Below, in pieces: positions 5,736 through 27,113 of a stretch of 31,065 bases of DNA. How positions within the stretch are numbered: position 1 is the stretch's first letter; every line of letters starts with the position of its first letter. Position numbers and translations under genes: made by a program. Source of the stretch: a virus; the IMG/VR virus record IMGVR_UViG_3300031227_004701, positions 1 to 31,065 of that record; one strand, written 5' to 3'. The notes below the pieces were generated by a model that was given only the letters and a program-made list of their open reading frames with translations, made no database searches and was not told the origin of the DNA.

Positions 5736-5762
5736 AAAAAAACCGCCACTTACTTATGGCGG
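5736..5762 (-). terminator. Intrinsic terminator-like hairpin abutting a start codon
   Basis: The minus-strand RNA has a 6 bp stem CCGCCA/TGGCGG (5757-5762 with 5743-5748), an 8 nt loop, and seven U residues (5736-5742), followed immediately by the ATG at 5735. It overlaps the last codons and stop of the glycosyltransferase gene at 5750. It could end the glycan-island transcript, act as an attenuator for the 5735 gene, or both. Confidence 0.75.
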
Positions 5763-9227: not shown

Positions 9228-9240
9228 ATTTTTCCTTCTT

Positions 9241-9258
9241 GGGCGATGTCGCCCTTTT
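9241..9258 (+). terminator. Hairpin with U-tract in the plus orientation (antisense direction)
   Basis: GGGCGATGTCGCCC (9241-9254) is a perfect inverted repeat followed on the plus strand by five T residues. By shape it would stop antisense transcription coming from the left. For the minus-strand operon it is a plain hairpin without a U-tract, between the 9258-9983 and 8409-9227 genes, and may affect mRNA stability. Confidence 0.4.
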
Positions 9259-9983: not shown

Positions 9984-10848
9984 CAAACTCCTTCCAAAGT
10001 CTCATTCTTTTGTGAAACTCTTTAAAATATTTTTTAACATCTGGGCTAGTTTTATTTTGCCAATAAAGTTCATTCAAGCCAAATCCCCTTGCTTCCTTAA
10101 CCAAGTTAGTAAAAACATTACTTGCCTTGTCATGCCAAACATTACTATATCCAGTAACTACGGCCCAACCCTTCTTGTCTATTACTTTTTTAGAATATTG
10201 ACCACCAAATACATCATCAGCTCTGTCAACACCCATAAATGGAGGCATCATATACATGTAGGGCAACATTTTCCTTTTAAATCCAACATTCATTATAGAC
10301 ATAGGATAAAAAATACCTTTTGGAATAGGACCCTTAAAGAATTTCATCTTAGGATTACCCCTAACCAACTGCGTTGGTGCATCATAGTCATGAACATTTT
10401 CCCAAACTCCATGTGACAAAACTACTTCTGCTTCATCTCTTACTCCATAAGGAAATCCTCTGGTGTACTCACTACCCAAAGACATCCAACTGACAGGCAC
10501 CCTAGTATTTAAAACATCAATATGGTCTTGAATTGGATCTCCAATTGGCGAAACATCATCATCAGTAGTTATGATGTATTCAACTTCTGGACAATATTTG
10601 GCAATATAAGCAAAACCCATGTTCCTTACAGCAGAAGTTCTATTACCAATCAAGGCACTATATTTTCCCATTAATTGTTTTGCAGAAAACTTCTTACCAT
10701 CCCAAGTCTTTAATATTGGTTTTTTACCATCATAAATAATAAAAACCTGACACTTAAAATTCCAGTCTTTTAAAAACTGCTTTATCTTTTCTGGCCTTAT
10801 TGTTGGAATAACTACAGCTATTGATTTATCAATTATTTCTTTTTGCAT
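9949..10848 (-). CDS. Reversibly glycosylated polypeptide / UDP-arabinopyranose mutase homologue
   Basis: A 299 aa protein that matches the RGP/UAM family over its length. Residues 12-18 read VVIPTIR. ITTDDDVSP has the DDD motif at 96-98. RGFPYGVRD (130-138) parallels plant RGYPFSLRE and keeps two arginines seven apart, R130 and R137. HGVW and DYDAPTQLV (154-162), IPKG (175-178), MNVGF, DDVFGG (211-216) and WHDKASNVFTNLVKE (238-252) follow in the family order. Characterised plant members interconvert UDP-arabinopyranose and UDP-arabinofuranose and are glycosylated on an arginine that I align with R130. Here it sits between methyltransferases and glycosyltransferases and would supply or transfer a pentose. 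Activity on arabinose is inferred; related family members lack mutase activity. Confidence 0.75.
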   Translation of the reverse strand: MQKEIIDKSIAVVIPTIRPEKIKQFLKDWNFKCQVFIIYDGKKPILKTWDGKKFSAKQLMGKYSALIGNRTSAVRNMGFAYIAKYCPEVEYIITTDDDVSPIGDPIQDHIDVLNTRVPVSWMSLGSEYTRGFPYGVRDEAEVVLSHGVWENVHDYDAPTQLVRGNPKMKFFKGPIPKGIFYPMSIMNVGFKRKMLPYMYMMPPFMGVDRADDVFGGQYSKKVIDKKGWAVVTGYSNVWHDKASNVFTNLVKEARGFGLNELYWQNKTSPDVKKYFKEFHKRMRLWKEFVENCSIHDGKK

Positions 10849-11444
10849 ATTTGAAAAGCACTCCTTTCTTTTTTATAAGTAAAACTTTCTCTTTTTGAAT
10901 ACAAATATTTTAATTCATCTACCGCTTTTACAAGTTGTGGTTGATTTCCAGTATAGTAATCATGAAACAAAACAAGATTTCCTTTTTTAACAAATGGCGT
11001 CCAATTCTTTCCATCATGATAAACTTCAGGATAAGAATGATCCCCATCTATAATCAGTAAGTCTATTTCTCTTTCCCACCCAGTTACTAATTCATATGAT
11101 GGATGTTGATATAGTGTCCAATTCTTTATACCTTTTAAGTTTTCAAGGAGTGCACTTTTTACTTCTGTTTTTGTGTACTTTCTCTCTTCGCCTGGTTCAC
11201 ACGTACCGCCTTTTCTATATTCATAATCATATGGAAAAGGATCGACAGATATAACTTGACTTGTAGGAGAAGAAAGAGAAAGCATTTTAGCTGATCTCCC
11301 CATCCAAGCTCCTATTTCCACGATTAAGCCATTTTCAATCTTACTGGCGTGGTTATATAACAAGCGACAATCTGATCTTGACATCCAACCATGTATGTCC
11401 TTAATCTGATTATATATATTTTCAAAACCTATTTCTTTGTGCAT
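10833..11444 (-). CDS. Class I SAM methyltransferase (Methyltransf_24-like), copy 2
   Basis: A 203 aa protein. LIVEIGAWMGRSAKML is the SAM-binding loop. Then come VISVDPFPYDYEY (acidic ribose-binding position), LLIIDGDHSYPEV and NLVLFHDYYTGNQP. This is the pattern of small sugar or secondary-metabolite O-methyltransferases with an IDGDHxY metal and catalytic segment. It is a tandem duplicate of the 11429-12007 gene: both share KDIxGWM, CxxLYNxASKIxNG, SPTSQ, GIKNW, DLLIIDGDH and VLFHDYY. It likely methylates a sugar in the glycan built by the neighbouring transferases. Its 3' end (FQICKKK) contains the start codon of the RGP-like gene, a 16 nt overlap. Confidence 0.8.
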   Translation of the reverse strand: MHKEIGFENIYNQIKDIHGWMSRSDCRLLYNHASKIENGLIVEIGAWMGRSAKMLSLSSPTSQVISVDPFPYDYEYRKGGTCEPGEERKYTKTEVKSALLENLKGIKNWTLYQHPSYELVTGWEREIDLLIIDGDHSYPEVYHDGKNWTPFVKKGNLVLFHDYYTGNQPQLVKAVDELKYLYSKRESFTYKKERSAFQICKKK

Positions 11445-12007
11445 ATTTGGAACATACTTCCTATACCATCTTTATTGGTATAATCTTTTCTTTCACTAAA
11501 TAAATGTTTTAGAGCATTTACGGCTGGTTTAACATAATGTTTGGCTGCATGATAGTAATCGTGAAACAAAACATAATGACCAACCTTTACCTCTGGCACC
11601 CAGGTAGCTGTATCCAATCTTACCGACAACTCCTGATGATCCCCATCAATTATTAATAAATCAATTGGTGTGTGCCATGTTCTACTACCCTCAACTGAAT
11701 CAATGTGATGTAAGTGCCAATTCTTAATACCAATCATATTTTTAAGACACTCCCTTTTTGCATCTTCACCCTTAATAACACTACCACCCTTATACTCATA
11801 ATTAGAAATATAAGAATCAAATGAATGAATCTGACTGGTGGGTGAAGCCAAACAAAGAACTTTGCTTGATCTTCCCATATATGGACCAATCTCAACAATT
11901 ACGCCATTTTTTATTTTAGAGGCATAGTTGTAAAGAACCTCACAATCACAAATTGGCATCCAGCCTTTAATATCTTTTACTTGATCGAATACTTCTTCAA
12001 ATGTCAT
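11429..12007 (-). CDS. Class I SAM methyltransferase (Methyltransf_24-like), copy 1
   Basis: A 192 aa protein with VIVEIGPYMGRSSKVL as SAM-binding motif I, IHSFDSYISNYEY, DLLIIDGDHQELSV and HYVLFHDYYHAAKHYV. The ATG at 12007 overlaps the previous stop by one base (TAATG), with AGGAGG 8 nt upstream. It is paralogous to the next gene downstream. Where copy 2 has IDGDHSYPEV this copy has IDGDHQELSV, so the Tyr after the conserved His is missing and its substrate may differ. The reaction is inferred to be O-methylation of a sugar. The fold assignment is firm. Confidence 0.8.
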   Translation of the reverse strand: MTFEEVFDQVKDIKGWMPICDCEVLYNYASKIKNGVIVEIGPYMGRSSKVLCLASPTSQIHSFDSYISNYEYKGGSVIKGEDAKRECLKNMIGIKNWHLHHIDSVEGSRTWHTPIDLLIIDGDHQELSVRLDTATWVPEVKVGHYVLFHDYYHAAKHYVKPAVNALKHLFSERKDYTNKDGIGSMFQICTKK

Positions 12008-12747
12008 TAAAACGCCTCCTTATATTTATCTGGTATTTTCTTACAATTTTCCCTTTTTCTTTTTACAAAATCTTTAAATAACTTGCTACCTTCTCTTTTA
12101 GTTTTTAAGCTTTCAAATTCATCAGCATCAATAAACCTGGTATGTACCATAATTAAGTCTGGATCAGCCCTTTTGAAAATATAAACCTTTAAGTCAAGCT
12201 CTTTTACTTCAGATTTAAGTCTAAAGCTTTTAGGATAGTGAAATCCCCACACAAAAGTCTGCGGTATACTTGAAATGGCAGTTTTAAAATGAGCGCTGTG
12301 CGGCCACCAATGGTCTCTTTGTTCCATCCAAGGTTTTTCCCACTTCATGGCTGATTCATCACTAGATTGTATAATCTCTCTGCCTGTACAGGTGATTTCT
12401 TTCCCTTTCGCTTTCCTGACATAATCTCCTAAATCCTTATATTTATCAGGATTAACAATAATAAATTCATCTAAGTCAGAATAAACCACATAATCATATT
12501 TCTTTAACAAGCGCTTTTGCTGTTCTTCTATCGCGACCACGCATAAGTCATGATAATTACCAGTTCCAACAACGTTAAGTCCTTTTAGCTTAATCTCGGT
12601 AAAGTTATAACCATGAGTGGGTAAGTCCTTTTGCTTATCACTCAAATTAACCACATAAACATCAAAATCAAACTGGCAATAATACTTTAACCAGTATTTA
12701 AACCAAAAGTAATAATTCCTGACATAAACTAAACAAGCTATTTTCAT
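12007..12747 (-). CDS. Glycosyltransferase, Glyco_tranf_2_4/GT92-like, paralogue of 9258-9983
   Basis: A 246 aa GT-A-type enzyme that opens KIACLVYVRNYYFWFKYWLKYY and has YVVYSDLDEFIIVNPDKY as its DxD region. TGREIIQSS, then RDHWWPHSAHFKTA and WGFHYPKS mirror the paralogue downstream. The motif order is identical but overall identity looks moderate, so the two probably act at different steps of one glycan. It starts at an ATG that overlaps the previous stop by 4 nt. No membrane segment is visible. Confidence 0.7.
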   Translation of the reverse strand: MKIACLVYVRNYYFWFKYWLKYYCQFDFDVYVVNLSDKQKDLPTHGYNFTEIKLKGLNVVGTGNYHDLCVVAIEEQQKRLLKKYDYVVYSDLDEFIIVNPDKYKDLGDYVRKAKGKEITCTGREIIQSSDESAMKWEKPWMEQRDHWWPHSAHFKTAISSIPQTFVWGFHYPKSFRLKSEVKELDLKVYIFKRADPDLIMVHTRFIDADEFESLKTKREGSKLFKDFVKRKRENCKKIPDKYKEAF

Positions 12748-13373
12748 ACTACAAACATTCCAAATCCAGGCGGATTAGGATTCTCCATATTAGAAACTGA
12801 CCGATGAAGGTCTGGTAAAGATAATTTTGGGTATTTAATTTCATCCCATGCCCTTGTCATGCCCTCATTCAGCCTTATATCATCTATTAAAACAATCGTT
12901 CCCTTTTTAAAGAATTGGTCATATAACTGCATTTCAGCATGTAACTGCTCATAATTATGATCTGTATCAAAAAACCATAGATCGGTTTCTTTAAGTTGGC
13001 AGTCTTTAGGCCAAATTGCTAAGTCTAAGTCATTTCCCCTTATTAACGTTAAATTTGGATAATCCTGCTTAATAAATCTAAACTCACCCTCTGGTTCTGG
13101 AATAGAACAAGCATAAAGCATTGAATCCTTTGGTAAAGTTGATAGCATCATTAAAGCTGAAGATCCTCCAGCCGAGCCAAGCTCAACCACTTGCTTTGGT
13201 TTTATGGCCTTTACCAATGCCGCCAAATACCGATAATATTTTAAATTAACAACGTTATTAATATCATTCAAGCTACCTTGACTCACATCTTTAAGGTAGG
13301 GCTGAATTTTGCTAAAATCTAGCTTCGCCAATTCGTTCATTGCTAGTTGATTAATTCCTTTTGGTGTTACCAT
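12744..13373 (-). CDS. Class I SAM methyltransferase (CmcI/Methyltransf_24 type)
   Basis: A 209 aa protein. VVELGSAGGSSALMML (residues ~62-77) is the SAM-binding loop, DLWFFDTDHNYEQLHAEM carries the acidic D-x-D-H segment, and IVLIDDIRLNEGM is the following strand. This resembles CmcI-type and rhamnosyl O-methyltransferases that bind a metal through the DxDH and DD residues. It precedes the GT92-like gene by a 4 nt overlap and follows a small zinc-binding protein by 7 nt of overlap. It likely methylates a sugar hydroxyl. Confidence 0.75.
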   Translation of the reverse strand: MVTPKGINQLAMNELAKLDFSKIQPYLKDVSQGSLNDINNVVNLKYYRYLAALVKAIKPKQVVELGSAGGSSALMMLSTLPKDSMLYACSIPEPEGEFRFIKQDYPNLTLIRGNDLDLAIWPKDCQLKETDLWFFDTDHNYEQLHAEMQLYDQFFKKGTIVLIDDIRLNEGMTRAWDEIKYPKLSLPDLHRSVSNMENPNPPGFGMFVV

Positions 13374-13546
13374 TTTTTAATCTCCTCTGGACTAGGCATT
13401 TTGCCTGTTACTGGATCTCTATGCTTTTTTTGATATTCGTAATTGGTTATACAAACCTTCTTATGACAAATCTTAGGCTTGTCATTTGGATTCCAATAAG
13501 GAACATTGACCCCGCACATAATACATTTTGTGTGTAAAACTTTCAT
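13367..13546 (-). CDS. Small zinc-binding protein (59 aa)
   Basis: Reading MKVLHTKCIMCGVNVPYW..., this short gene has CIMC and a second pair CHKKVC about 20 residues later, a typical zinc ribbon. A very good ribosome binding site (AGGAGG, 4 nt before ATG) and a 7 nt overlap with the methyltransferase downstream support it as real. The C-terminal half is basic and polar (YQKKHRDPVTGKM). It may be a small regulator or a metal-binding accessory protein. No specific function can be assigned. Confidence 0.65.
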   Translation of the reverse strand: MKVLHTKCIMCGVNVPYWNPNDKPKICHKKVCITNYEYQKKHRDPVTGKMPSPEEIKKW

Positions 13547-13558
13547 TTCGCCTCCTTT

Positions 13559-13759
13559 CTATTTTTCTTCTTTCTTAAAATATTCACCAAATGGATGATG
13601 AAAAGGACATCTAGGAGCATTTCTAGAGGCATAAGTACAGCCACTCCTTGCACAAACATCCTTATTATATTGATTTGATTCTGGAGTCAAAGGTTTGCTT
13701 GAACCACTAAATAAAGCATGGCCTATAAATGATCCTAATAATGCTCCAAAAAAACTCAT
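13559..13759 (-). CDS. Small protein with hydrophobic N-terminus and Cys/His cluster (66 aa)
   Basis: A 66 aa protein whose first ~18 residues (MSFFGALLGSFIGHALF) are hydrophobic and glycine-rich, suggesting membrane association. The C-terminal part has C-x4-C, then RCPFHHPFG, a plausible single metal site. It overlaps the upstream methyltransferase by 4 nt (ATGA), so translation is coupled. Placed inside the glycan island, it could tether enzymes at the membrane. That is speculation, and the family is not recognised. Confidence 0.55.
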   Translation of the reverse strand: MSFFGALLGSFIGHALFSGSSKPLTPESNQYNKDVCARSGCTYASRNAPRCPFHHPFGEYFKKEEK

Positions 13760-14541
13760 TTTTCCTCCTTCCTTTGGTACTTAAAACAAATTAAACCATC
13801 TTTACTAAAGATTTCTCCTACTTTATAATCCTTCAAAAGCTCTTTAATTGTTTCTTTTGTAAAAACCCTTATATGCCCTCTAGGTAATTTGCCGTCCCAT
13901 TCCCATCCACCCTTAATGTTACCCGCACCATCACCATAGGGGCCGTCTGGAGTAGTAACATAGACCCAGCCACCAGGATTAGTCATATCTACCATGTGTT
14001 TTAAGAAGTCTTTTGGGTCAACCACTACATGCTCAAATACTTCCATGCAAGAAACAAGATCAACCTTTTCCTTTGGCACGAAGGTAGTTACATTATCCTG
14101 AACAAACTTAGCCTTAACCCCTAGTTCTTTAGCTCTCTGCCTTGCTACTTTCAAGGCACCACTGGTCATTTCAACCCCAGTAGCCTTTACCCCACATTTA
14201 TTGGCATAAATAACCAAACTACCAACGTAGCAACCAAGGTCAATCATTGACTTGGCTTTATCTAAGCCATCAACAACCCATTGATAGCGAGCATATCTCT
14301 TCCCTGGATCAAGGGCTATAATTGCTGGTTCAATTCTTTCACAATCATCAGCTGGAACATCAAGTAATTTATCCAACCATTCTGGCTCAAAAACATGACG
14401 CACTATACCGTAAGTGTTTTTTCGTTCCTCTTCTAGTCCAACGAGGTCCTTAAAATGTTTCAGTAAATTCCAAGCCTTGAGGGGTTCATCCATTGTCACT
14501 AGTTCCCTTCTTATTATTTTGATTGCTGTTTTTAGGTCCAT
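13756..14541 (-). CDS. Class I SAM methyltransferase (UbiG/Methyltransf_11-type)
   Basis: A 261 aa enzyme with a canonical core: SMIDLGCYVGSLVIYA (residues 98-113, motif I), KATGVEMTSGALKVAR (acidic ribose-binding residue), KFVQDNVTTF, VDLVSCMEVFEHV (motif IV) and NPGGWVYVTTPDGP. A ~90 residue N-terminal helical extension may bind substrate. It follows the GT4 C-terminal gene with a one-base overlap. It is a different methyltransferase type from the three IDGDH or DTDH enzymes in the island, which suggests another position or substrate, perhaps a glycan or lipid head. The substrate is unknown. Confidence 0.8.
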   Translation of the reverse strand: MDLKTAIKIIRRELVTMDEPLKAWNLLKHFKDLVGLEEERKNTYGIVRHVFEPEWLDKLLDVPADDCERIEPAIIALDPGKRYARYQWVVDGLDKAKSMIDLGCYVGSLVIYANKCGVKATGVEMTSGALKVARQRAKELGVKAKFVQDNVTTFVPKEKVDLVSCMEVFEHVVVDPKDFLKHMVDMTNPGGWVYVTTPDGPYGDGAGNIKGGWEWDGKLPRGHIRVFTKETIKELLKDYKVGEIFSKDGLICFKYQRKEEK

Positions 14542-15221
14542 TAGTACGTCACCTCCAATCCATGCTTTTTTTGTAATTTAACAGGCATGTACTGTGCTAA
14601 TTTTGCATCTTTTTTAAGTACCACGTTCATGGCTTCCTTTAAATCATCACGCTTGAACTCATTAGACCAGCCCTGAGCCACTTTTTCCCATCCAAAGGTG
14701 TCTTTGGCCCACTTCATCATTGGTTTTCTAATTTCTTCCTGCCTTTTATGATCCTTTAAAAGACTAATCAACTGTTTTTTGTATTCTTCCTGTACTTCTG
14801 ACTCATAAATATCGCCTTCAATCTTAATTCCATGCTGTACCGTTGTTTTTAAAGCAGCATAATCAATCACAACTGGAACAGCGCCCCAAACTTGGGCCTT
14901 CATGGCACTTATACAGCTAATTTCTCCAAAGTGAGTAGGATAAGTCCACAAACCACATTTTTGATACCATTTCTTAATCTCTGGTTGAGGGATACGGCCA
15001 TGATGAGTAACCCCATCTGTTTCCATTAACTTGTCCATTTTTCCCTTCCATGCCATTGAAGCGGGATTATTATTGTAAAAGCGAACAAACAACTGCCAGC
15101 CATAGAAAATATGTAATTCTGCTTGAGGAACGGCCTTTTTAACATCTGGCCACATCTTTAAGAGATGTTCTAATCCACGGTCATAGGAAGAAGTATATAT
15201 ACACGAATAAGGATTTCTCAT
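14541..15221 (-). CDS. C-terminal (donor-binding) domain of a split GT4 glycosyltransferase
   Basis: A 226 aa protein that is only the second Rossmann lobe of a GT-B enzyme. It begins at the usual start of that lobe (NPYSCIYTSSYDRGLEHLL), then ELHIFYGW, VTHHGRIPQPEIKKWYQKC and LWTYPTHFGEISCISAMKA, the E-x7-A donor-sugar region. The first lobe lies at the end of the preceding gene, which stops at GNGVNL just where the crossover would occur. The ATG at 15221 overlaps that stop by 4 nt. Two subunits could assemble into one active enzyme. Otherwise a lost base split a single gene. Confidence 0.75.
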   Translation of the reverse strand: MRNPYSCIYTSSYDRGLEHLLKMWPDVKKAVPQAELHIFYGWQLFVRFYNNNPASMAWKGKMDKLMETDGVTHHGRIPQPEIKKWYQKCGLWTYPTHFGEISCISAMKAQVWGAVPVVIDYAALKTTVQHGIKIEGDIYESEVQEEYKKQLISLLKDHKRQEEIRKPMMKWAKDTFGWEKVAQGWSNEFKRDDLKEAMNVVLKKDAKLAQYMPVKLQKKHGLEVTY

Positions 15222-17059
15222 AAGTTTACTCCGTTCCCAGTTATCATCACTTTCTCATCAGGGATATCGGGCAGATTCTCCCTATGCCATTGTGACAAAA
15301 CCATAATCTTGGTAATTTTATCCAATCTTTCCTTTGTATAGTCTAATTGGTTGGCCACATCATGCAGCCAGACATATATTTTCTTGGCGTTATAGTTTGC
15401 ATCTACTAATTGCGGCTGCCTCCAACCTATTACAATATTAAATGTATCTTTTGGATTAAGCCTAAAAGCTGGAATATATTTAACCCCATCATGTTCTCCT
15501 TCATCTATCCCTGGTTCAGCATAAACAGTTACTTTCCAACCAAGTCTAGCTAGTTCCCTGCTTAAATAAATAACTGCCTCTTCACTGCCGCCAATGAAGG
15601 ATTGGCCTGGCTTATCTAAAGACTTAGGCGACCAAGATGTATAGTTAAATCCACATATAAGAGCAATTTCATCATCTTTCCATATTCTAGGCGGGATAAC
15701 CTTCTTACTAAGTTCAGCCATAAAAGGATTATCAGCAATCATTGCGGGTAAAGAAAGCAGAAGCGGCTTTAATTTGTCTTTTTGACCCGTCTTTTCTAAA
15801 TGATCAACCAACTCTATTACATTTTTAGAAAGCTTTTTCTGAAGAACCAAATTATCAGTAAACTTTACCCTATTAGCCATGGCTTGATCGTTAGGCAGAA
15901 GTTCGTGAAGTTTTTGAGATGCCGCCCATGCTTCGTTGATTTTACCGGTTTGAATTGAACTGTGATATAAAATCTCTAAAGCTCTTGCCATTAAGTCGCG
16001 GGGATTGCTAACTAACGTTGACCGTGGACTCTTAATCTTTGATGCTAATTTAACCCAGTGTAATGCTCTTGTCCATTCCTTTTTAACCAAATATGACATC
16101 GCGATATTAAGATAGGCACCGGGGGATCTATCATCTTCTATTAAAGCATTATGACCGCATTTAATAGCATTATTTATTTCCCCTAAAGCACGATAAATCT
16201 CCGTCAAATACTCCCAGCATTGAGCGCGCTCCTCTACCCAGCCAGACTGATGCTCTCCACCCACATAAGATAAAAATAAAGTTTTGCTTGATTCTAAATA
16301 TTCCTTTTTTTTAGTAATCAGCCAAACGTCAAAATGCGCCTTGCCTAAATAATAAATGGGGCGGGGATCTTTGCCCTCTGTTTCATAGATGCTTAATTCT
16401 AAGTTCTTAATGTTCCTTAACAAAGCTTTTTTTGACCTTTTAGAGTTAGAGAGGTGAAGAACATCACACCAGTCATTTTCGCCTTTCCTTGTTGGTTTCT
16501 GCTCAATTAAGGTTTCATGAATACAAGCAACCCATTTATGAAGCCCTACGTTTTTAATTATTCTTTCCCTTAAATGTTCAATTAAAATGTTTTTAACCTT
16601 ATTATCTACAATTTCCGCTTGGTAGATATAATTCATAAAAACACTATCAAGTTTGTTAACTTCTGCCCACTTAACAATTTCTTTTAACCTGTCACCCCTA
16701 AAAATGTCGTCAACATCAAGCCATATCATCCATTTAAACTCTTCAGGTACTTGAGCCAAATTGTGATTTCTAGCCTTATCAAATAAGAATATCTTGTCAC
16801 CAATCTCTATTTCTGGATTTAAACCAAACTTCTTTAACCACTCAATATGCTTTTTTTCAATTACTCTAAAGAACTTATCGGGTTCATAATCAACTACGGC
16901 CCCGTATTTTTTAGCCACTTTCCTTAGTTTATTATTCTTAGTTGGGGTTGTAATAGTTATAAACATCCCATCAACTTGTTTATCAATAGAGCTTAGAACC
17001 CTTCTAAGGGTATTAGGATCTTCATGTCCGGCCACAATTAAGTTAAGGGCAATTTTCAT
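15218..17059 (-). CDS. GT2 glycosyltransferase + TPR repeats + N-terminal domain of split GT4
   Basis: A 613 aa multidomain protein. Residues 1-~200 are a GT2-type domain (KIALNLIVAGHEDPNTLRRV, WMIWLDVDDIFRGDRL with a DVDD motif, then HKWVACIHETLIE). Residues ~225-420 are helical TPR-like repeats (IYYLGKAHFDVW, YLTEIYRALGEINNAIKCGH, AYLNIAMSYLVKKEWTRALH). From ~460 it becomes the N-terminal lobe of a GT4 enzyme (SFIGGSEEAVIYLSRELAR, IYVWLHDVANQLD), ending at ITGNGVNL. The C-terminal lobe is the next gene. GT2 and TPR fusions are common in bacterial and phage glycan clusters. It is the first gene of the island and overlaps the upstream unknown gene by 4 nt. Confidence 0.8.
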   Translation of the reverse strand: MKIALNLIVAGHEDPNTLRRVLSSIDKQVDGMFITITTPTKNNKLRKVAKKYGAVVDYEPDKFFRVIEKKHIEWLKKFGLNPEIEIGDKIFLFDKARNHNLAQVPEEFKWMIWLDVDDIFRGDRLKEIVKWAEVNKLDSVFMNYIYQAEIVDNKVKNILIEHLRERIIKNVGLHKWVACIHETLIEQKPTRKGENDWCDVLHLSNSKRSKKALLRNIKNLELSIYETEGKDPRPIYYLGKAHFDVWLITKKKEYLESSKTLFLSYVGGEHQSGWVEERAQCWEYLTEIYRALGEINNAIKCGHNALIEDDRSPGAYLNIAMSYLVKKEWTRALHWVKLASKIKSPRSTLVSNPRDLMARALEILYHSSIQTGKINEAWAASQKLHELLPNDQAMANRVKFTDNLVLQKKLSKNVIELVDHLEKTGQKDKLKPLLLSLPAMIADNPFMAELSKKVIPPRIWKDDEIALICGFNYTSWSPKSLDKPGQSFIGGSEEAVIYLSRELARLGWKVTVYAEPGIDEGEHDGVKYIPAFRLNPKDTFNIVIGWRQPQLVDANYNAKKIYVWLHDVANQLDYTKERLDKITKIMVLSQWHRENLPDIPDEKVMITGNGVNL

Positions 17060-17570: not shown

Positions 17571-18509
17571 TTAACCTCCCTGTGCGTAACCAGAACTTCT
17601 GAATGAAGATCTTTCTGCCAGATACTCCAAAGTAACTTCACCAATAATGTGACCGTTGTCACGATCTCCATCTTTGGCCAATCTTTCCCTCTTTGGAGGT
17701 CTCAAATAAGCAAGTTTCCACTTGTCTTCTTTAATACCGATTATTTGAGGTCCTGGAGTAGTCACCGCGCTAGGAACGTCTTTGTGCGCAAAGAGTTTGT
17801 GTACACCTCCATCAGACTCATAAACCTCGACTGGTCTTGTAAGTCTTTTGTCAGAAGCATCCACATACTTTGTTGAACCAGCTGTAAAAGTAGAAATCTT
17901 TTGTTTCAGTTGAAAAGTCGTTAGAACTGTGTCAAACACATCTGAGTGTCCAACGTCATCCCAAACTAATTTAACCATTGAGTTAAATTCTGTTTCAGAT
18001 AATGAACTTCCAGAATTTCTATTAGTATAGTGGCTCGTAATAACAGATTTCAAACCTGCCATTGTTCTTGCTACACCAGACGAACCAGAAGCCAAGGCGC
18101 CATTGATAATGTCGTATTCAAGTTGGTTTTTCCATTCTTTTAAACCTTTACCCGCTTGATAATCCAATGGACTACCCATACCTGCGTGGTCTACGTCCCT
18201 TTCCGTGCCAGAAACCCTATATGTTTGCTCGATAATTTCACACCAATTATGTCGTCTTACAGGTTGGGTTAAGTCGCTATAAGTAGCGGCTGCGCCTTCA
18301 ACTGAAGTTGACTGACTGGATTTTCGAGAAATATAGTCTTCTAGCCATTCGTGGTGAACTTGTTTTGCTGTGCTTCTACCAAGCATTGTCGCTAAAGGAT
18401 TGTCATCTGGACTTACATCAGTAATAATATCCAGTAAATCCTCCCGCATTGCCTGGTCGCTATCCGTAGCACCAGCAGCATCCGTCCATGTTCCTAAACC
18501 ATATGCCAT
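17571..18509 (-). CDS. Major capsid protein, SU10-like (DUF5309/HK97-fold)
   Basis: A 312 aa protein that I match to the SU10-type major capsid family. ITDVSPDDNPLATMLG is followed by VHHEWLEDYISR, SVEGAAATYSDLTQPVRRHN, EIIEQTYRVSGTERDVDHAG and LEYDIINGALASGSSGVART, the order seen in that family. Then come KLVWDDVGHSDVFDTVLTT and VEVYESDGGVHKLFAHKDVP. It has a strong ribosome binding site (AAGGGGGTGA). Scaffold precedes it immediately, as expected. The size matches family members (about 300-360 aa), and no cleaved N-terminal delta domain is evident since a separate scaffold exists. Confidence 0.85.
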   Translation of the reverse strand: MAYGLGTWTDAAGATDSDQAMREDLLDIITDVSPDDNPLATMLGRSTAKQVHHEWLEDYISRKSSQSTSVEGAAATYSDLTQPVRRHNWCEIIEQTYRVSGTERDVDHAGMGSPLDYQAGKGLKEWKNQLEYDIINGALASGSSGVARTMAGLKSVITSHYTNRNSGSSLSETEFNSMVKLVWDDVGHSDVFDTVLTTFQLKQKISTFTAGSTKYVDASDKRLTRPVEVYESDGGVHKLFAHKDVPSAVTTPGPQIIGIKEDKWKLAYLRPPKRERLAKDGDRDNGHIIGEVTLEYLAERSSFRSSGYAQGG

Positions 18510-19872: not shown

Positions 19873-20178
19873 TTATTGGCCAATTTTGAACTTAGTATCC
19901 TCTTTACTATATTTTTTCTTGTTCAAAGTCTTTAATGTTTGTTCTTGCTGTTCAATAAACTGTAATATCTCAATTATTACTTTTTTAAACATACTAGCAG
20001 TTACCGCTGCATAGTTAAACTCTTTTTCTATTTTGAATTGGGTTGGGTCTGGAAACGACTGGTCGCGCTTGACCTCCAGCCATGGGCCTAGCACCTGCTG
20101 CCATCCTTCCGACTGGGACATTTCCTTGACCTGCCCCGCCTGCTTGCGGGCCAACTCCTCCTGCTTGGTTAGCTTCAT
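19873..20178 (-). CDS. Helical protein overlapping the portal 3' end
   Basis: A 101 aa protein from ATG 20178, preferred over an upstream in-frame TTG because AGGAAGG lies 5 nt before it. The sequence is MKLTKQEELARKQ..., highly charged and helical, with a C-terminal coil-like segment (VIIEILQFIEQQEQTLKTLN). It overlaps the portal coding sequence by about 164 nt in another frame, so its first half is dual-coding with the Gly/Pro-rich portal tail. The function is unknown. Its position suggests a portal- or capsid-associated factor. Confidence 0.6.
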   Translation of the reverse strand: MKLTKQEELARKQAGQVKEMSQSEGWQQVLGPWLEVKRDQSFPDPTQFKIEKEFNYAAVTASMFKKVIIEILQFIEQQEQTLKTLNKKKYSKEDTKFKIGQ

Positions 20179-22060
20179 TTGGTCCTTCCTGTATTTTTTC
20201 AAAATACTTTTCAGCGTCTTTTAATCCTACATCTTCAAGTGAATCTTCTAATAATTCCTTCATTTTAATCCTTATGCCTTCTTGTTGCAGTAATGCTATT
20301 GTATTTGGATCTCTTGCTTGTTCTAACAGTTGTCTTTTCATTATGCCTTTTTGCTCATCAGTCGGCAATTGCATTGATTCTACATCGGGTATAAAGTCAT
20401 AATTACCGGACAAATCTTCTGGGGTAAGAATCAAACTGCCCACCTCATCCCCTTCTTCCATTTCAAGCTTTGGTTTAATACCGTCTTCTGTTTTAATTGG
20501 ATATTGCGGTTGGCCAAAACCTTCAACGTCAATGTTAACGCCGCTTTCCATAGCCTCTGCCATTTTTCTTGCATCTTCGTCATTAATTACATGATTGTCT
20601 AAGCCCCTGCTTTGAAAGTATCTAATCGCTTCTTTACCTACAATTCTAATGATTTTTTGCTGTTCCCTTGGATCGCTGAACATAAACTGCTTATTCATTG
20701 CGTGCCAAAACATCATTTGCTTTTTAATTGCTTCTTTCAGGAACAGTTGATTGAAATTGTCTCTGGCGTTCTTTTGCATTTCACTTGCCTTGATTTCTGT
20801 AGCCGTCCTGTCTTGCTGTCCCGGCACCATGCCCGAAGTTTGTGCTGATGTTTCACCAACAGCTTCCTGTAATGCCCCTACTAAGAATCTATAAGTTGAA
20901 GCAAACTCTGAAACACCGGCAATACCTGATTCATGAGCAACTACATCTGTAGCGGGATCGTTCATAATCCATTTCTTGCCCGGCCCAAACTCTAAGGTGT
21001 GCATTTGAACACCGGTAGACCTAACTTTAAGCGGTGTATATAACTTCATGTTCACCCCATCTAAATATTGACAAATCAACGCATTAATACCACGCTGGAT
21101 TCTTTCAACTGGTTCAACTTCCGACAATCCGTATAGGTCGTCATCAATCGGATAATATTTAAGCATTACTACTGGAATTTGCTGATGGTCATAAGGATTT
21201 GGAATCTCCCTCAAGACAACACCATATTTAGGGGCGAAGGTAATCCACTTGTCATTTCTATATTCTGTTATTACTTCTACTGTTTTATATACCTCATCCC
21301 TGCCTAAGAAATCCTGTAAGCCTTTTAATGATTTATTCTTAAGCACAAAATTAGAGGCTCTTGTGTCACCGTGTTTCTTAGCTTCCTTTTTTACAGAATC
21401 TCTTAAGATGTCAAGGTTTTTATAGATTGGCTTGCTTCTTGCCATGTCATTAACCCGTCCAAACTCATCCAAAGTTACATAATCCCTATATTGAAACCAC
21501 TGTTTGATTGTAGAATAGGAAGGATTAGCTAATACGTCTCTCGGAGATAATACTTTAAAGTCATTGCCATCATAAAAGGGGACTGACTTAACCTTGCCAT
21601 CCTTTTTTTTAAATCCTCTATCATACCGATACTTACACAAAGCAAAAGCACTGCCATATTTTCTAGTAATCGTATCCATCATTGCCCATTTGGCTAACAT
21701 GGCCATAGAATCAACTCTTTCGTTTTCATCCCATTGAAACATTAAAAGTTCATTGTTGATCTTAGCACCCAAAGCATCTCCGCCTTCTCTTGGCACCATT
21801 CTGCCCCTTAGTTTGTTTGCCAATAACCTTGAAGTCTTTTCAAATATGAAAGTAAAAACACGGGGATCAAATACTACTGAATTGTAGGGCCAGTTTGAAG
21901 TATCAATGTGGGAACGGAAAAGCTCATCTACTTTGTCCCATTGGGGTCTGCGGACATCTAAATCTTCCTCTGCCATGCTTTTATGACGCATAACATCAAC
22001 AAAGGTTTTTCTTTCGTCTAGGGTTCCTTTAACAACGATTTTTTCTAGCGGATTAGCCAT
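20015..22060 (-). CDS. Portal protein (large podovirus-type)
   Basis: A 681 aa protein, the size of podovirus-type portals rather than the ~450 aa siphovirus type. Typical segments are FEKTSRLLANKLRGRMVP, YGSAFALCKYRYDRG, FYDGNDFKVLSPRDVLANPS, YYPIDDDLYGLSEVEPVERI and TSAQTSGMVPGQQDRTATE. The last ~60 residues are a Gly/Ala/Pro-rich tail dual-coding with the next gene. It would form the dodecameric DNA entry ring. The gene starts after a promoter and a terminator-like hairpin, with U8 three bases before the ATG and no Shine-Dalgarno site. A membrane-protein gene and zinc-binding genes separate it from terminase. Confidence 0.85.
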   Translation of the reverse strand: MANPLEKIVVKGTLDERKTFVDVMRHKSMAEEDLDVRRPQWDKVDELFRSHIDTSNWPYNSVVFDPRVFTFIFEKTSRLLANKLRGRMVPREGGDALGAKINNELLMFQWDENERVDSMAMLAKWAMMDTITRKYGSAFALCKYRYDRGFKKKDGKVKSVPFYDGNDFKVLSPRDVLANPSYSTIKQWFQYRDYVTLDEFGRVNDMARSKPIYKNLDILRDSVKKEAKKHGDTRASNFVLKNKSLKGLQDFLGRDEVYKTVEVITEYRNDKWITFAPKYGVVLREIPNPYDHQQIPVVMLKYYPIDDDLYGLSEVEPVERIQRGINALICQYLDGVNMKLYTPLKVRSTGVQMHTLEFGPGKKWIMNDPATDVVAHESGIAGVSEFASTYRFLVGALQEAVGETSAQTSGMVPGQQDRTATEIKASEMQKNARDNFNQLFLKEAIKKQMMFWHAMNKQFMFSDPREQQKIIRIVGKEAIRYFQSRGLDNHVINDEDARKMAEAMESGVNIDVEGFGQPQYPIKTEDGIKPKLEMEEGDEVGSLILTPEDLSGNYDFIPDVESMQLPTDEQKGIMKRQLLEQARDPNTIALLQQEGIRIKMKELLEDSLEDVGLKDAEKYFEKIQEGPNEANQAGGVGPQAGGAGQGNVPVGRMAAGARPMAGGQARPVVSRPNPIQNRKRV

Positions 22061-22188: not shown

Positions 22189-22695
22189 CTAAACCTTGAA
22201 CCTTTCTGCTAATTGTATTTCCCAAACATCATAATCCTCTGTATAACAAAACCATTTATCTTTGCCATTTTCTTCGCAATAATCAAAAGCAATGTAATTA
22301 CTTTTAGTAAAATATATTTTTTGAATATAAGAAGAATCACAATAATCACCACCCCATCCTCTTATATCCCACTCACCACCCTCACAATACTCTGGAACAT
22401 AATCTGCACGAACCTTATAGCACTTACTAACTTTATCATAGGGACACGCATAAACAATGGTAATATAAGTAAATTGATTCTGATAAATTGCCCAACCAAC
22501 AATAACAGCCCAAACGACAAAAGAAAACAAATAATATCTTTTCTTATATTGTCTATCAGTTTTTTCTTGGTGTTCAAATGCACACTTTATTTCTTCACCT
22601 AATACAAAATGTTTAAAGCCATTAATAACAACCCCAATAATTATAACAGGAAAGAAAAATATTAAACTTGCTATAACTATAAAATCATTTTTCAT
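22189..22695 (-). CDS. Two-transmembrane protein with Cys-rich exposed domain
   Basis: A 168 aa protein. Residues ~5-26 (FIVIASLIFFFPVIIIGVVI) and ~55-71 (YLFSFVVWAVIVGWAIY) are transmembrane segments, joined by a charged loop. The last ~90 residues are polar and Cys-rich (YACPYDKVSKCY, EYCEGGEW, DYCDSS, DYCEEN, WFCYTEDYD), which suggests disulfides outside the cytoplasm. It overlaps the zinc-finger gene upstream by 4 nt. It may alter the host envelope, for example in superinfection exclusion, but no family is recognised. It is the last gene before the portal promoter. Confidence 0.55.
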   Translation of the reverse strand: MKNDFIVIASLIFFFPVIIIGVVINGFKHFVLGEEIKCAFEHQEKTDRQYKKRYYLFSFVVWAVIVGWAIYQNQFTYITIVYACPYDKVSKCYKVRADYVPEYCEGGEWDIRGWGGDYCDSSYIQKIYFTKSNYIAFDYCEENGKDKWFCYTEDYDVWEIQLAERFKV

Positions 22696-23504
22696 ATTCT
22701 TGTTTTGAGAAGGATGTATTGGTTAGGACGATGCCTTTGATCCCCAATTCGCCCTTTTTCATTACCACCACCGCGTTTTAATAATCTTATTGCCTTAACT
22801 TTTATTAAATATTCTATAGACGGATAGAGGGCCCGTGTGTCTAAAGCTTCATAACCGTCTATAGGTAATCCCCAAGTATTTGACCAATTAAACCTTTTTC
22901 CAATTTTAGCAATGGGCCTTTCCCATTCCAGATTATCTTGATTACCAGTCCAGTACTTTAAAAATGCTCTTGCTATCCTTTTATACTTAGGATTTATATA
23001 ATTTCTACGCATTTTATCTATTTCGTTTATATTTTGTAAAAATTTATACCAAGAGTTTTTTCCATACCTTCTCCTTGTCGCATTAAGTAAATATTGATGA
23101 TTATCTCTTAACCAACAAGTGTTAAATTTACTTTTAGATTTTATTCTTTTAAATTTCTTTTTAATTATTTTTTTAGTATAAACAGTATTACATAACTTCC
23201 CCGCACAATAGTGACTACAAAACCTACCTGCGTTTTTTATCCCGCCTACTTGGCTTGGTGGATTTTTAAATTGTTTACCACACCACCGACATTTCAATTT
23301 AACTCTCTTTCTCCGTTGGTATTTATCATGGCATTTTACATTACAAAAAATCCTCTTTTTCGTAAAATTATAAAGACTCTCCCATTGCCATTTTCTTTTC
23401 CAAACAGCGGGACATTTTTTCTTCTGTATTGCCCCCCACTTCCTTATTTTAAACCTCTTCCTCTTTAACTCCTTCCCACAATATTGACAAAATCTTTTTT
23501 TCAT
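22692..23504 (-). CDS. Multi-zinc-finger basic protein, function unknown
   Basis: A 270 aa very basic protein. ATG 23504 is the start because it overlaps the previous stop by 4 nt. The N-terminal ~105 residues hold Cys pairs: FCQYCGKEL, IFCNVKC, LKCRWCGKQF and FCSHYCAGK, the fingers seen at the front of phage HNH-type proteins. The rest is lysine- and arginine-rich helical sequence, without a visible HNH or GIY-YIG catalytic motif. It could be a DNA-binding protein or a homing-endonuclease relative that lost its nuclease. It sits in an insertion-like interval between terminase and portal. Confidence 0.5.
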   Translation of the reverse strand: MKKRFCQYCGKELKRKRFKIRKWGAIQKKKCPAVWKRKWQWESLYNFTKKRIFCNVKCHDKYQRRKRVKLKCRWCGKQFKNPPSQVGGIKNAGRFCSHYCAGKLCNTVYTKKIIKKKFKRIKSKSKFNTCWLRDNHQYLLNATRRRYGKNSWYKFLQNINEIDKMRRNYINPKYKRIARAFLKYWTGNQDNLEWERPIAKIGKRFNWSNTWGLPIDGYEALDTRALYPSIEYLIKVKAIRLLKRGGGNEKGRIGDQRHRPNQYILLKTRI

Positions 23505-23632
23505 TTTATCTTTCTTGTATAAGGCACGTTCCAATATTGACTTTTACAAGCAGGACAACGCTTAGGAATCCAGTCACCTCTTTTCCACCATGTGTTTCCA
23601 CACCGTATACATTTTTGAATAGGGCTTTTCAT
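23501..23632 (-). CDS. Small zinc-ribbon protein (43 aa)
   Basis: A 43 aa protein, MKSPIQKCIRCGNTWWKRG..., with CIRC and CPAC pairs and the pattern C-x2-CG-x2-W, P-x-x-CPxC. This is common for small phage and bacterial zinc ribbons that recognise nucleic acid or protein. The stop overlaps the next ATG by 4 nt. The promoter -10 box ends only 8 nt upstream of the ATG, so its mRNA would be almost leaderless and has no Shine-Dalgarno site. Confidence 0.6.
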   Translation of the reverse strand: MKSPIQKCIRCGNTWWKRGDWIPKRCPACKSQYWNVPYTRKIK

Positions 23633-23639
23633 TAAGATA

Positions 23640-23668
23640 ATACTACCACAAGAGGAATAACCTGTCAA
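23640..23668 (-). promoter_or_regulatory. Sigma70-type promoter TTGACA-17-TAGTAT
   Basis: The -35 TTGACA is at 23663-23668 and the -10 TAGTAT at 23640-23645, with a 17 bp spacer. The TGA stop of the MurB-like gene forms part of the -35 box, as at 4664-4669. The predicted start near 23633 lies almost on the ATG of the zinc-ribbon gene. Confidence 0.65.
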
Positions 23669-24471
23669 GTCCAGACAACTATCTCTAGCTCCAACTTAGT
23701 CTTATCTTGTATCCTTTTTATTAATGTCAATACTTCTGTTGAATCTGCCCCGCCAGTATTTAAGATAAAGGAAGGGAACATTGGCGAAGTTACTGCTTTA
23801 CCCTCCCATGCTCCAACCATTCCTATCCTTCTTATTATATCATTCCCACCCCAGCTTCCCTTGAAACAGCAGCCAGCCGAAGGAAAGGAAGGATAATCCC
23901 TTTTACGAACCTCCTGTATCTTGTCATAAATCTCTACTAATTTTTCATCCAGTTCCATTCTAAAAACAGCATTGATAACAATCCAGTCGTTTTGGAAAAC
24001 ACTTGTTCTGCGTCCAAAACAGCATTCTTCTTTACTAAACACTTTTCTTTCCCTTGTTAGTCTATTAAAAGCTTCAACGCTAACTAAATAATCCGATATT
24101 GTTCCACGGGACGCGCCAGCGTTCATGACAACAGCCCCCCCAATAGTACCGGGAATCCCTGAAATATGTACAAGTCCTCTTAAGCCAATTTTAGCGGTCA
24201 TTAAACCTGCTTTTCTTAACAAGAAGCCCGCTTCTACTAATAAGCTTGTTCCAGTAAGTCTAAAAGCGTCTAAGCTAATTTTTATGACTGAATTAACTCC
24301 TTTGCTAACTAAAATATTAGTACCCGCCCCCAGAATGTAAGCTGACTTTAAGGTTTTAGAATCTATTGCCATCAAATCGTCCACAGATTTAACAATGTAA
24401 AACCTTTTAGCAGGGCCTCCTATTTTATAACTCGTGTGGTTGGCTAATGGCTCATTTCTAAGTAATTCCAT
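23665..24471 (-). CDS. murB: MurB-like UDP-N-acetylenolpyruvoylglucosamine reductase
   Basis: A 268 aa protein with the MurB fold. NHTSYKIGGPA (11-21), AYILGAGTNILVSKG (44-58) and SGIPGTIGGAVVMNAGA (104-120) form the FAD site, and FPSAGCCFKGS (196-206) is the active-site loop. MurB normally reduces UDP-GlcNAc-enolpyruvate to UDP-MurNAc with NADPH. Two odd points: Cys201 stands where E. coli MurB has the proton-donating Ser229, and the YRxS motif reads R154-R-T-S, so its Tyr is replaced. It is somewhat shorter than host enzymes (about 300 aa). It overlaps the pyruvyl transferase gene by 14 nt, so the two probably act together. The family is clear; the substrate may not be the peptidoglycan precursor. 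Confidence 0.85.
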   Translation of the reverse strand: MELLRNEPLANHTSYKIGGPAKRFYIVKSVDDLMAIDSKTLKSAYILGAGTNILVSKGVNSVIKISLDAFRLTGTSLLVEAGFLLRKAGLMTAKIGLRGLVHISGIPGTIGGAVVMNAGASRGTISDYLVSVEAFNRLTRERKVFSKEECCFGRRTSVFQNDWIVINAVFRMELDEKLVEIYDKIQEVRKRDYPSFPSAGCCFKGSWGGNDIIRRIGMVGAWEGKAVTSPMFPSFILNTGGADSTEVLTLIKRIQDKTKLELEIVVWT

Positions 24472-25516
24472 CTTTTATCCCTTTAATTATTAATTGATAA
24501 ACGCTTTCTGCTTTTCTTTTTACTCCTGGAATAGTTTTCTCTAAACCTGCCCTAATTTGTTCCTTTAGCTTCCAAACACTGACAGCATATTCAAAAATAT
24601 CTTCCGCCTTAACCGTTTCCGTTAAAAGTACATTATTAAAGGGATAATCAATCATTTTCAATAATCCAGGCATTTTAAAGTCTATGTCTGGTGTCATTGG
24701 AACAAACGGAGTACAAGCTGACGCGGCATAAACTATGCCATGATACCTGTTAGATATTAAGATACCGTCTTTAAGAATGTCAATTAACTGCCCAGCGTCA
24801 GGTCTATCGTTAATAACTAAAGATTTATGATCCATCATTCCTGCTATTTCATTGGCTTGTACTCTATCATCCCTGCTTCCATGACCAATGGGAATAAAAA
24901 CAACTGGACCTAATGTTTCTACTGCCATGTCTGCAAACTTAGCAATTTCTTTTAATAGTCCTGGAGCGGCCAAGTATCCCCTTATACCTATTTTAACTGC
25001 TTCTGGTGGAAGGAGTTTAGGATACTTTTTAGCTTTAACAGTAAAAACGCCATCGGGGAGTAATTTAAGATGATAACCATTAACTCCTAGATGTTGAATT
25101 AATTTAAAAGACTCTTCTTCTCTCGCAACAACCAAATTAGCATTATTAAGGACGGTCTTGCCCAATTCCCTAGTTTCTTTACTCAAATTCCCTATAAAGG
25201 TCTGAGAAGCAAAGAAGGTTGGTTTACCAAGGCGCTGAGCAACTCTGAAATAGGTGAAGTGATTAATCATATCGTCCCCATTCATGTAGCCACCGCCCTG
25301 ACTTATTACTACATCTGCTTCCTCTAATGCCTTAGAAGAAAGCAATGGCGCTACTTTAACCTTTCCAAGCTGTTCTACGTCCCACGCTTCAGTTTTTTGC
25401 GAACAAATAGTAATAGAAACAGGAAAAGCTTCTTTTAAATGATCTATCATGCTTTTCCAAATAGCCACGTCACCAGTATTGCCAGTCTGCCAACAATGAG
25501 TTAGTAAAATATTCAT
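24458..25516 (-). CDS. Polysaccharide pyruvyl transferase family protein (CsaB/WcaK-like)
   Basis: A 352 aa GT-B-like enzyme. NILLTHCWQTGNTGDVAIW (the GNxGD motif) opens it. Then come ADVVISQGGGYMNGDDMI, NANLVVAREEESF and LLPDGVFTV, and in the second lobe VVFIPIGHGSRDDR and ISNRYHGIVYAASACTPFV (the R-x-HG segment). Family enzymes move pyruvate from phosphoenolpyruvate onto sugars as a ketal, for example on secondary cell-wall polymers. The start overlaps the 95 aa gene by 4 nt and the end overlaps the MurB-like gene. A phage-encoded copy next to a MurB-like enzyme is unusual. The target sugar is not evident. Confidence 0.85.
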   Translation of the reverse strand: MNILLTHCWQTGNTGDVAIWKSMIDHLKEAFPVSITICSQKTEAWDVEQLGKVKVAPLLSSKALEEADVVISQGGGYMNGDDMINHFTYFRVAQRLGKPTFFASQTFIGNLSKETRELGKTVLNNANLVVAREEESFKLIQHLGVNGYHLKLLPDGVFTVKAKKYPKLLPPEAVKIGIRGYLAAPGLLKEIAKFADMAVETLGPVVFIPIGHGSRDDRVQANEIAGMMDHKSLVINDRPDAGQLIDILKDGILISNRYHGIVYAASACTPFVPMTPDIDFKMPGLLKMIDYPFNNVLLTETVKAEDIFEYAVSVWKLKEQIRAGLEKTIPGVKRKAESVYQLIIKGIKDGIT

Positions 25517-25800
25517 ATTAACACTATCCTTTTTTTAACCATAACCGACTTAATAATATTATCTGTTTCTTCCGCCTTAATCTGTGTCACTACATTGTCT
25601 TGAACAAAAGTCCTAATAGTACCATAACCAGTCCCATAAGCTAAATTAGCCAAAGCCCTAACATAGCTGGTGATAATAAGTGGATTAACGCCTGTTTCTT
25701 CTAAAGCTATTTTAATTAAATAAAGTTCAGGATCTAATTTCCTTATTACTTCCCAATAAGATTTTAAATTAGCAGCCTCGACTGTTGGTAGTGATTTCAT
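25513..25800 (-). CDS. Conserved-looking small protein after large terminase, unknown
   Basis: A 95 aa protein (MKSLPTVEAANLKSYWEVI...) with a mixed helical pattern (LKSYWEVIRKLDPELYLIKI) and a central ALANLAYGTGYGTI segment. It overlaps TerL and the pyruvyl transferase gene by 4 nt each, so it is translated with them. It could be a small packaging accessory protein, but no motif supports this. Confidence 0.55.
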   Translation of the reverse strand: MKSLPTVEAANLKSYWEVIRKLDPELYLIKIALEETGVNPLIITSYVRALANLAYGTGYGTIRTFVQDNVVTQIKAEETDNIIKSVMVKKRIVLI

Positions 25801-27113
25801 AAACCTATTCTAAAACTCTTTTCACCAACCCTGCCAAATCGTGCTTGATCTGGCGGTGCTTGATCCATGCTTGTCTTCTTATAGCTGACAGCAAAATATC
25901 CCAAAGCGTCCATAGCGTGATCGTTAGCCTTCTCAGGTACATCGGGTTCATTTAAGTCTTGTGCTTGGGTAACTGATTTCTCTTTCCACCTATATGTTTC
26001 AAATTCATTAATTGTATTTTGACAGTTTTTGAAAACAAATAAACTTGGATTGCCTTTTTCTTTTTGGGTGACCTTCTCAACAAAATGTCCTGGTGAAGAC
26101 TTAAGTCTCTCTGCTACCTTCTCAATTCTAAGCCTAACCCAGCTTTGCTGATTTGTGCCAGACTCCCTAGTTGCCGGAGTAATATAGATACCCCTTTCTT
26201 GAAATTCTTTAATCCATTGCGCTCCAGAAGGATCACCATAACTTGATACAACACTTTTAGAGTAAGTATTGGAATTAATAATACCGGCATGATAATCGAT
26301 AGTCTTGCCGGCTAAATAGTGTTCGTCAATAATAAACCAGTTGTCGTCGTCATCAACTCCAACCCAAAGACAAACAGTGGGATTAGTAGAACCAAAGTCA
26401 AGACAGCGATAAATACTAAAATCTACATCAAAGGGTTCAATGACATGAATGCTTCTGTCAAACCCTTTATACACAAGTCCTGTATACTTTCTAAAGTCAG
26501 CCATGTATTCTTGAGCGAATGTATCTTCAGTCAACTCGGCTTTAGCTTGATCTATCTCTCCTTTTGGAATGAAATTATTATCATACGAAGTGAATCGCCA
26601 CGACTTATAACTTCCCTCTACTTGTCCCAACTCATATAACTTATGGAAATGATTAAAACCTTTTGGTGTTGAAATGAAGATAGTCGGGGCTTCGTAATCT
26701 GTTAAAGTGGGTCGCAATACTTCTAACCATAACCAGTCCCAGTTTCTTATACTAGCGATTTCGTCAATCACTAAACCTCTTAATTTAACTCCTCTTAGTG
26801 TATCGGGGTTCTCAGCACCTTTTAGTTCAATGATACTGCCGTTTATAAGTTCAATCGAGAGATATGGTCTGCCAATAATTTTCCTAATCCACTTCTTTGG
26901 TATCTCTTTCTGGATGTCTCTCCAATGAATCATTTCCGACTGCTTATAAGTTGGTGAAACTATCCAGTAGATTCCTCGTTCTTTAATTGCCCAGCCCAAC
27001 ACAATCATTCGGCTTAAAACTGATTTGCCTGCTCTTCTTCCAGCACATACAACTTTAAACCTATGGTTATCCCTCAATACCTGGCTTTGCCACTTCGATA
27101 GTTTGACTCTCAT
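25797..27113 (-). CDS. terL: Terminase large subunit (ATPase and nuclease)
   Basis: A 438 aa DNA-packaging motor. Walker A is AGRRAGKS (residues 24-31), Walker B is LVIDEIAS (114-121) with the catalytic Glu, and the coupling motif is ISTPKG (~147-152). The RNase H-like nuclease domain shows CLDFGSTNPTVCLWVG (first Asp), SYGDPSGAQW and NDHAMDALGYFAV (last Asp). It binds the portal and cuts concatemeric DNA. The ATG overlaps the small terminase gene by 47 nt and has no strong ribosome binding site, which suggests coupled translation. All expected motifs are intact. Confidence 0.92.
   Translation of the reverse strand: MRVKLSKWQSQVLRDNHRFKVVCAGRRAGKSVLSRMIVLGWAIKERGIYWIVSPTYKQSEMIHWRDIQKEIPKKWIRKIIGRPYLSIELINGSIIELKGAENPDTLRGVKLRGLVIDEIASIRNWDWLWLEVLRPTLTDYEAPTIFISTPKGFNHFHKLYELGQVEGSYKSWRFTSYDNNFIPKGEIDQAKAELTEDTFAQEYMADFRKYTGLVYKGFDRSIHVIEPFDVDFSIYRCLDFGSTNPTVCLWVGVDDDDNWFIIDEHYLAGKTIDYHAGIINSNTYSKSVVSSYGDPSGAQWIKEFQERGIYITPATRESGTNQQSWVRLRIEKVAERLKSSPGHFVEKVTQKEKGNPSLFVFKNCQNTINEFETYRWKEKSVTQAQDLNEPDVPEKANDHAMDALGYFAVSYKKTSMDQAPPDQARFGRVGEKSFRIGL

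Follow-up and report, generated by a model that had tools for sequence, protein, structure and literature searches.

Why should a phage carry, between its terminase and portal genes, a polysaccharide pyruvyl transferase-family (PSPT) gene joined to a gene for a MurB-like FAD reductase? The question is raised by a window of 31,065 bases, the whole stretch of DNA that was analysed, which is an entire IMG/VR virus record (Table 1). A preliminary description had placed the pair between terminase and portal, and both ORFs are found exactly as it had drawn them, with an overlap of 14 nt (24458-24471). It had also spoken of a coupled operon following TerL. A chain of overlapping genes is indeed present, running from TerS and TerL through a gene of 95 aa to PSPT and the MurB-like gene, but the pair does not follow TerL directly, as the 95-aa gene lies in between and overlaps both TerL and PSPT by 4 nt each. 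The 95-aa protein matched no known family above cut-off, and homologues of it occupy the same position in about 20 relatives identified through TerL. As the pair lies in the packaging region, expression late in infection may be supposed.

Table 1. Genes of the window that are discussed in the text, in the order of their positions
Feature	Position	Strand	Basis and remarks
Glycan block	5750-15221	minus	Pfam; glycosyltransferases, methyltransferases and an RGP-family protein
Gene at the end of the block	5750-6607	minus	no Pfam match; GT2-like by eye
Glycosyltransferases in the block	14541, 12007, 9258, 8409, 7693, 7058		Pfam (7058 weakly; 12007 and 8409 below cut-off)
RGP-family (reversibly glycosylated polypeptide) protein	9949-10848	minus	Pfam
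Four methyltransferases in the block	13756, 12744, 11429, 10833	minus	Pfam
Two-domain glycosyltransferase (GT2 + GT4-like)	15218-17059	minus	Pfam; lies a short distance downstream of the capsid gene
Major capsid protein, SU10 type	17571-18509	minus	PF17236, E 2e-64; adjoins the glycan block
Portal	20015-22060		
168-aa ORF and HNH-like endonuclease ORF	22189-23534		
MurB-like FAD reductase, divergent subfamily	23665-24471	minus	268 aa; Pfam MurB_C/FAD_binding_4
PSPT (polysaccharide pyruvyl transferase-family)	24458-25516	minus	352 aa; PF04230, E 7e-28
Small gene between TerL and the pair	25513-25800	minus	95 aa; conserved
TerL (terminase large subunit)	25797-27113	minus	phrog_2, E 1e-51

Two ORFs separate the MurB-like gene from the portal gene. 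Both are missing in a related contig (L002), and they are possibly a mobile endonuclease insertion. The dN/dS values were 0.13 for PSPT and 0.17-0.19 for the MurB-like gene, and 0.07-0.09 for TerL, the portal and the 95-aa gene. Therefore, both members of the pair are under purifying selection.

The PSPT protein matches PF04230 (PS_pyruv_trans) with 98.7 bits against a cut-off of 25.3. Its best name among the NCBIfam models is CsaB, but the equivalog cut-off of TIGR03609 is missed (86.4 vs 213.1 bits). Against PHROG, only a marginal match to a family of unknown function was obtained, and against cultured phages there was no match. A structural model was built from four sequences (pLDDT 83), and its best matches were GT-B glycosyltransferases and UDP-GlcNAc 2-epimerases, with TM-scores mostly of 0.5-0.6. 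The GT-B fold is the one expected for the PF04230 family. The members of this family characterised so far make pyruvate ketals (reviewed in PMC6801904).

The partner protein matches PF02873 (MurB_C, 38.1 bits, cut-off 27) and PF01565 (FAD_binding_4, 31.7 bits, cut-off 26.4). MurB is also its best NCBIfam name, yet every equivalog cut-off is missed: the best score was 173.6 bits where 259 are needed, and TIGR00179 gave 117.5 against 144.5. No PHROG family was matched at E 0.1. The subfamily is marked by the motifs FPSAGCxFKGxWGGxDIIR and SPxFPSFILN. An AlphaFold model built with 28 sequences (pLDDT 88) resembles MurB structures with TM-scores of 0.77-0.91 and VIA Z-scores of 27-31.5, while the next-best matches, FAD oxidases, reach a Z of about 13-14. 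Thus, where structure prediction had been named as the check on the two family assignments, both models match their families.

The residues of three phage MurB-like proteins were aligned with those of 25 cellular MurBs. The catalytic Arg155, Cys201 and Glu263 are present in all three phage proteins; at position 201, the cellular enzymes have either Ser (15 of the 25) or Cys (the other 10). The substrate domain is different. The Asn of the FKN motif, Asn205, is replaced by Gly in all three phage proteins and kept in 24 of the 25 cellular ones. Similarly, in the HxNF motif, His232 (25 of 25 cellular MurBs) has become Phe and Asn234 (24 of 25) has become Ser in each phage protein, and the protein of the window accordingly reads Gly205, Phe232 and Ser234. 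Judged by its motif (the Asn after FK), Asn205 would be the counterpart of Asn-243 in P. aeruginosa MurB, a residue in contact with the bound nucleotide (PMC3689657). The loss of three near-invariant substrate-domain residues argues that the phage enzyme is probably not a peptidoglycan MurB. With the catalytic residues kept and those of the substrate domain altered, the enzyme seems still to be capable of the reduction, but probably acts on another substrate than the cellular enzyme does.

It was further asked how often the pair recurs, a search of viral databases having been proposed from the outset. A TerL search of viral contigs gave 44 loci. Most of the TerL-related phages have no gene, or small ones, in the slot that is bounded by the portal on one side and by TerL, together with any 95-aa gene, on the other. 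In L002, the pair is present, with 77% and 74% identity to the window proteins. In L003, PSPT is kept (69%), and the place of the MurB-like gene is taken by a full FrhB_FdhB protein that overlaps PSPT. A search of 20 related virus records with PF04230 found PSPT only in the record of L003. The same slot holds a short-chain dehydrogenase in one further locus (L013:9361-10059) and a methyltransferase in another (L035:3949-4446). On the whole, it looks like a cargo site.

Outside this group, a search with the PSPT alignment located L052, in which PSPT and the MurB-like protein are 44-45% identical to those of the window over the alignments, and the two genes overlap by the same 14 nt (7007-7020). 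The terminase there is of the PF04466 type and the portal is fused to a MuF domain, both unlike those of the window. The gene order is also its own: the portal is followed by GT2, GT4, PSPT, MurB-like and GT2 genes, and then by the capsid genes. When all viral contigs were scanned with a DNA motif of the MurB subfamily, L002 and L052 were the sole matches other than the window, and so the MurB-type pair is known from just these three phage records. No match was obtained when genome contigs were scanned with the PSPT alignment. Among cultured phages, the MurB matches come mostly from unannotated fecal contigs without a PSPT match and are probably bacterial murB. The PSPT-MurB module is, therefore, rare, yet it occurs in two unrelated phage lineages. 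Such recurrence is hard to explain without a joint function. The pairing is real and conserved, as is evident from the purifying selection and from its recurrence in both the related L002 and the unrelated L052.

The FrhB protein of L003 shows that the partner of PSPT is not fixed, a point that had escaped the preliminary description. Among the other viral contigs, FrhB was found only in L003, by a query with one sequence, which is sensitive to close relatives only. Its relatives were located on bacterial plasmids, and in 6 of the 10 FrhB loci examined, that of S. meliloti included, PSPT lies directly beside FrhB. The two genes overlap by 14 nt in S. meliloti (pSymB) and in Ensifer, by 16 nt in Parabacteroides, where a flippase and glycosyltransferases are nearby, by 8 nt in D. 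shibae, and by 4 nt in K. aerogenes (p35_D), again with glycosyltransferases nearby; in Loktanella, they are immediate neighbours. The loci with this arrangement (L098, L113, L114, L118, L119 and L120) belong to diverse bacteria. Together with the FrhB of L003, these neighbours establish PSPT and a flavoprotein as a recurrent module in which the flavoprotein is exchangeable. Phages thus use either of two non-homologous flavoproteins, MurB-like or FrhB, in the same slot. E. coli genomes searched with the FrhB-PSPT DNA of K. aerogenes gave no match, and in the literature no paper was found that names the PSPT and FrhB families together with glycosyltransferases, or that describes their pairing.

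The surroundings of the pair point to a glycan. A block of glycosyltransferase and methyltransferase genes of about 11 kb (5750-17059) lies between the SU10-type capsid gene and the tail genes, so that the glycosyltransferases are located among the structural genes of this phage. The preliminary description had overlooked it. Nearly the whole block is kept in the second pair-bearing contig. Relatives without the pair keep parts of it, notably, in several of them, the two-domain glycosyltransferase after the capsid gene. From this distribution, the pair appears to be an optional decoration added to an existing phage glycan pathway.

MurB is known to reduce an enolpyruvyl ether, PSPTs use PEP, and a pyruvate ketal is not a MurB substrate. 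With this in mind, we tentatively propose, giving it somewhat less than an even chance, that the pair is a decoration module of a phage-encoded glycan, in which a PEP-dependent (enol)pyruvyl transfer is followed by flavin reduction to a lactyl ether, an uncommon acidic group. PSPT would use PEP to place a pyruvate-derived C3 unit on a hydroxyl group of a sugar in the glycan or in its precursor, and would stop at the enolpyruvyl ether. The MurB-like flavoenzyme, using NAD(P)H and FAD, would then reduce this ether to the lactyl (1-carboxyethyl) ether, the same reduction as that of MurB in MurNAc synthesis but on a different carrier. Assembly of the glycan itself would fall to the glycosyltransferase/methyltransferase block that adjoins the capsid gene. 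The virion would be its likeliest destination, because the block is encoded among structural genes, with the host surface as the alternative. The sequential action of the two proteins, their product and its destination are inferred. As the characterised PSPTs make ketals, which are not MurB substrates, the model requires that this PSPT stop at the enolpyruvyl ether. Of what had been suggested for the pair at first sight, the idea of a lactyl- or pyruvyl-modified sugar holds up best, since the pairing is conserved in two unrelated lineages and both families handle PEP- or pyruvate-derived groups; the chemistry is the part that we infer.

Lactyl ethers occur in capsules and O-antigens, for example, in those of Klebsiella K22 and of Salinivibrio. 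The K37 capsule of Klebsiella carries the same 4-O-(1-carboxyethyl)-GlcA residue as K22. The stereochemistry counts against the model, as the product of MurB is (R) and the lactyl group of K22 is (S). No paper was found in the literature that names the enzymes making lactyl ethers of polysaccharides, nor one that links PSPT directly to such an ether. In the Klebsiella types K8, K22, K37 and K66, pyruvyltransferase genes are present and capsule pyruvylation is absent, and the same capsule survey counts two nitroreductases and one F420 hydrogenase over all the loci together (PMC4616057). For K22, 4-O-[(S)-1-carboxyethyl]-glucuronic acid is given as a capsule component in a title cited in PMC3857182. 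A stop in an acetyltransferase gene is all that distinguishes K22 from K37 (PMC5359410). The K22 pattern lends indirect, correlative support to a link between PSPT and the lactyl ether. It is possible, although doubtful, that PSPT forms an unrecognised general pathway with a flavin reductase, which would be MurB-like in phages and FrhB, or perhaps a nitroreductase, in bacteria. Its products would be lactyl ethers on polysaccharides, a modification that has been known for a long time. Phages would use the pathway to decorate their own glycan, and one non-homologous flavoprotein would have taken the place of another as the reductase on at least one occasion.

The alternative that survives best is one in which PSPT makes an ordinary ketal while the redox step of the MurB-like FAD protein, oxidation or reduction, takes place at a different sugar position, the two being neighbours only through a common glycan. 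Ketals are indeed what the known PSPTs make (PMC6801904), and structure comparison finds the FAD fold also in sugar oxidases such as DprE1; the altered substrate-domain residues fit with it too. However, the Arg/Cys/Glu set of enolpyruvyl reduction is retained, the predicted model is far more similar to MurB (Z 27-31) than to the oxidases (Z about 13-14), and the pairing is fixed in unrelated phages. On balance, we regard this separation of roles as unlikely.

It is slightly less likely still that the same chemistry is aimed at the host envelope, so that a surface polysaccharide of the host is altered during infection or lysogeny and superinfection is blocked or a receptor changed. The bacterial PSPT-FrhB pairs do sit in surface-glycan loci, and an integrase is present in 4 of 19 records of relatives. 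Against this, the position of the genes among those for packaging and the head fits with late expression, and several relatives have the core glycosyltransferase gene after that of the capsid. Moreover, no integrase was found in the records of the window, L002, L003 and L052, all of which are fragments.

Interference with host wall synthesis had also been suggested at the beginning, with complementation of a murB mutant as the expectation. A phage MurB that adds to UDP-MurNAc synthesis, or takes it over, would agree with the fold and the catalytic residues, and among the cellular sequences located, those nearest to the protein are murB genes, mostly of Patescibacteria, with up to 39-40% identity. 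This reading fares poorly and is very improbable. Asn205, His232 and Asn234 are lost, all the NCBIfam MurB equivalog cut-offs are missed, no MurA-like gene was seen among the window genes examined, and the neighbours are glycan-assembly and structural genes instead of mur genes. Moreover, the MurB-like gene is always found with PSPT, and what replaces it in L003 is FrhB rather than another Mur enzyme. Lastly, viral glycosyltransferases are known to decorate DNA with diverse glycans (Pyle 2024, as cited in PMC12619734), but it is highly improbable that this glycan sits on the phage DNA instead of on a protein or lipid, as none of the genes examined in this fragmentary record resembles a nucleotide-hypermodification enzyme.

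As regards the host, the closest cellular MurBs in the scan (L056-L067) come mostly from Patescibacteria (Staskawiczbacteria and others), a group that the peptide patterns of the scan may favour; this similarity may be taken as a weak hint. TerL was compared with 380 genomes of the phylum and nothing close was found, the best match being 39%. PSPT matches are present in 10 of these 380 genomes, and no MurB or FrhB relative lies beside them in the short loci read.

If lactyl-ether formation is indeed the role of the compact, conserved PSPT-reductase pair, it offers two candidate genes for this step. A new decoration would be added to phage-encoded glycan chemistry, and the adjacency of PSPT and FrhB genes in bacterial glycan loci would be explained.

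Several known systems resemble parts of this arrangement. The CsaB, WcaK and Pvg1 pyruvyl transferases share the PF04230 family and the GT-B fold with the phage PSPT, which, however, falls below the CsaB equivalog cut-off, is coupled to a reductase and is phage-borne. The MurA-MurB route to UDP-MurNAc likewise handles a PEP-derived group, and its FAD enzyme shares the MurB fold and the catalytic residues with the phage protein; the phage has a GT-B fold PSPT in place of MurA, altered substrate-binding residues and a glycan context. In mycobacteriophages, virion glycosylation also involves glycosyltransferase genes of a tailed phage (Freeman 2023, as cited in PMC12619734). Those of the window adjoin the capsid gene and differ in forming a block of ten-plus genes with methyltransferases and a putative pyruvate-derived decoration, for a glycan that would be attached to virions. 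The Klebsiella K22 and K37 lactyl-ether capsules combine a pyruvyltransferase gene with the absence of a pyruvate ketal (PMC4616057), K22 having 4-O-(1-carboxyethyl)-GlcA by the title cited above, but these are bacterial and of (S) configuration. In the bacterial PSPT-FrhB pairs, a PF04230-type protein is again coupled to a flavoprotein; in many cases the genes overlap, by 4-16 nt, and many of the pairs have glycosyltransferases or a flippase next to them. They differ in residing in bacterial genomes and in the partner, which is FrhB (PF04422/PF04432) where the window has MurB.
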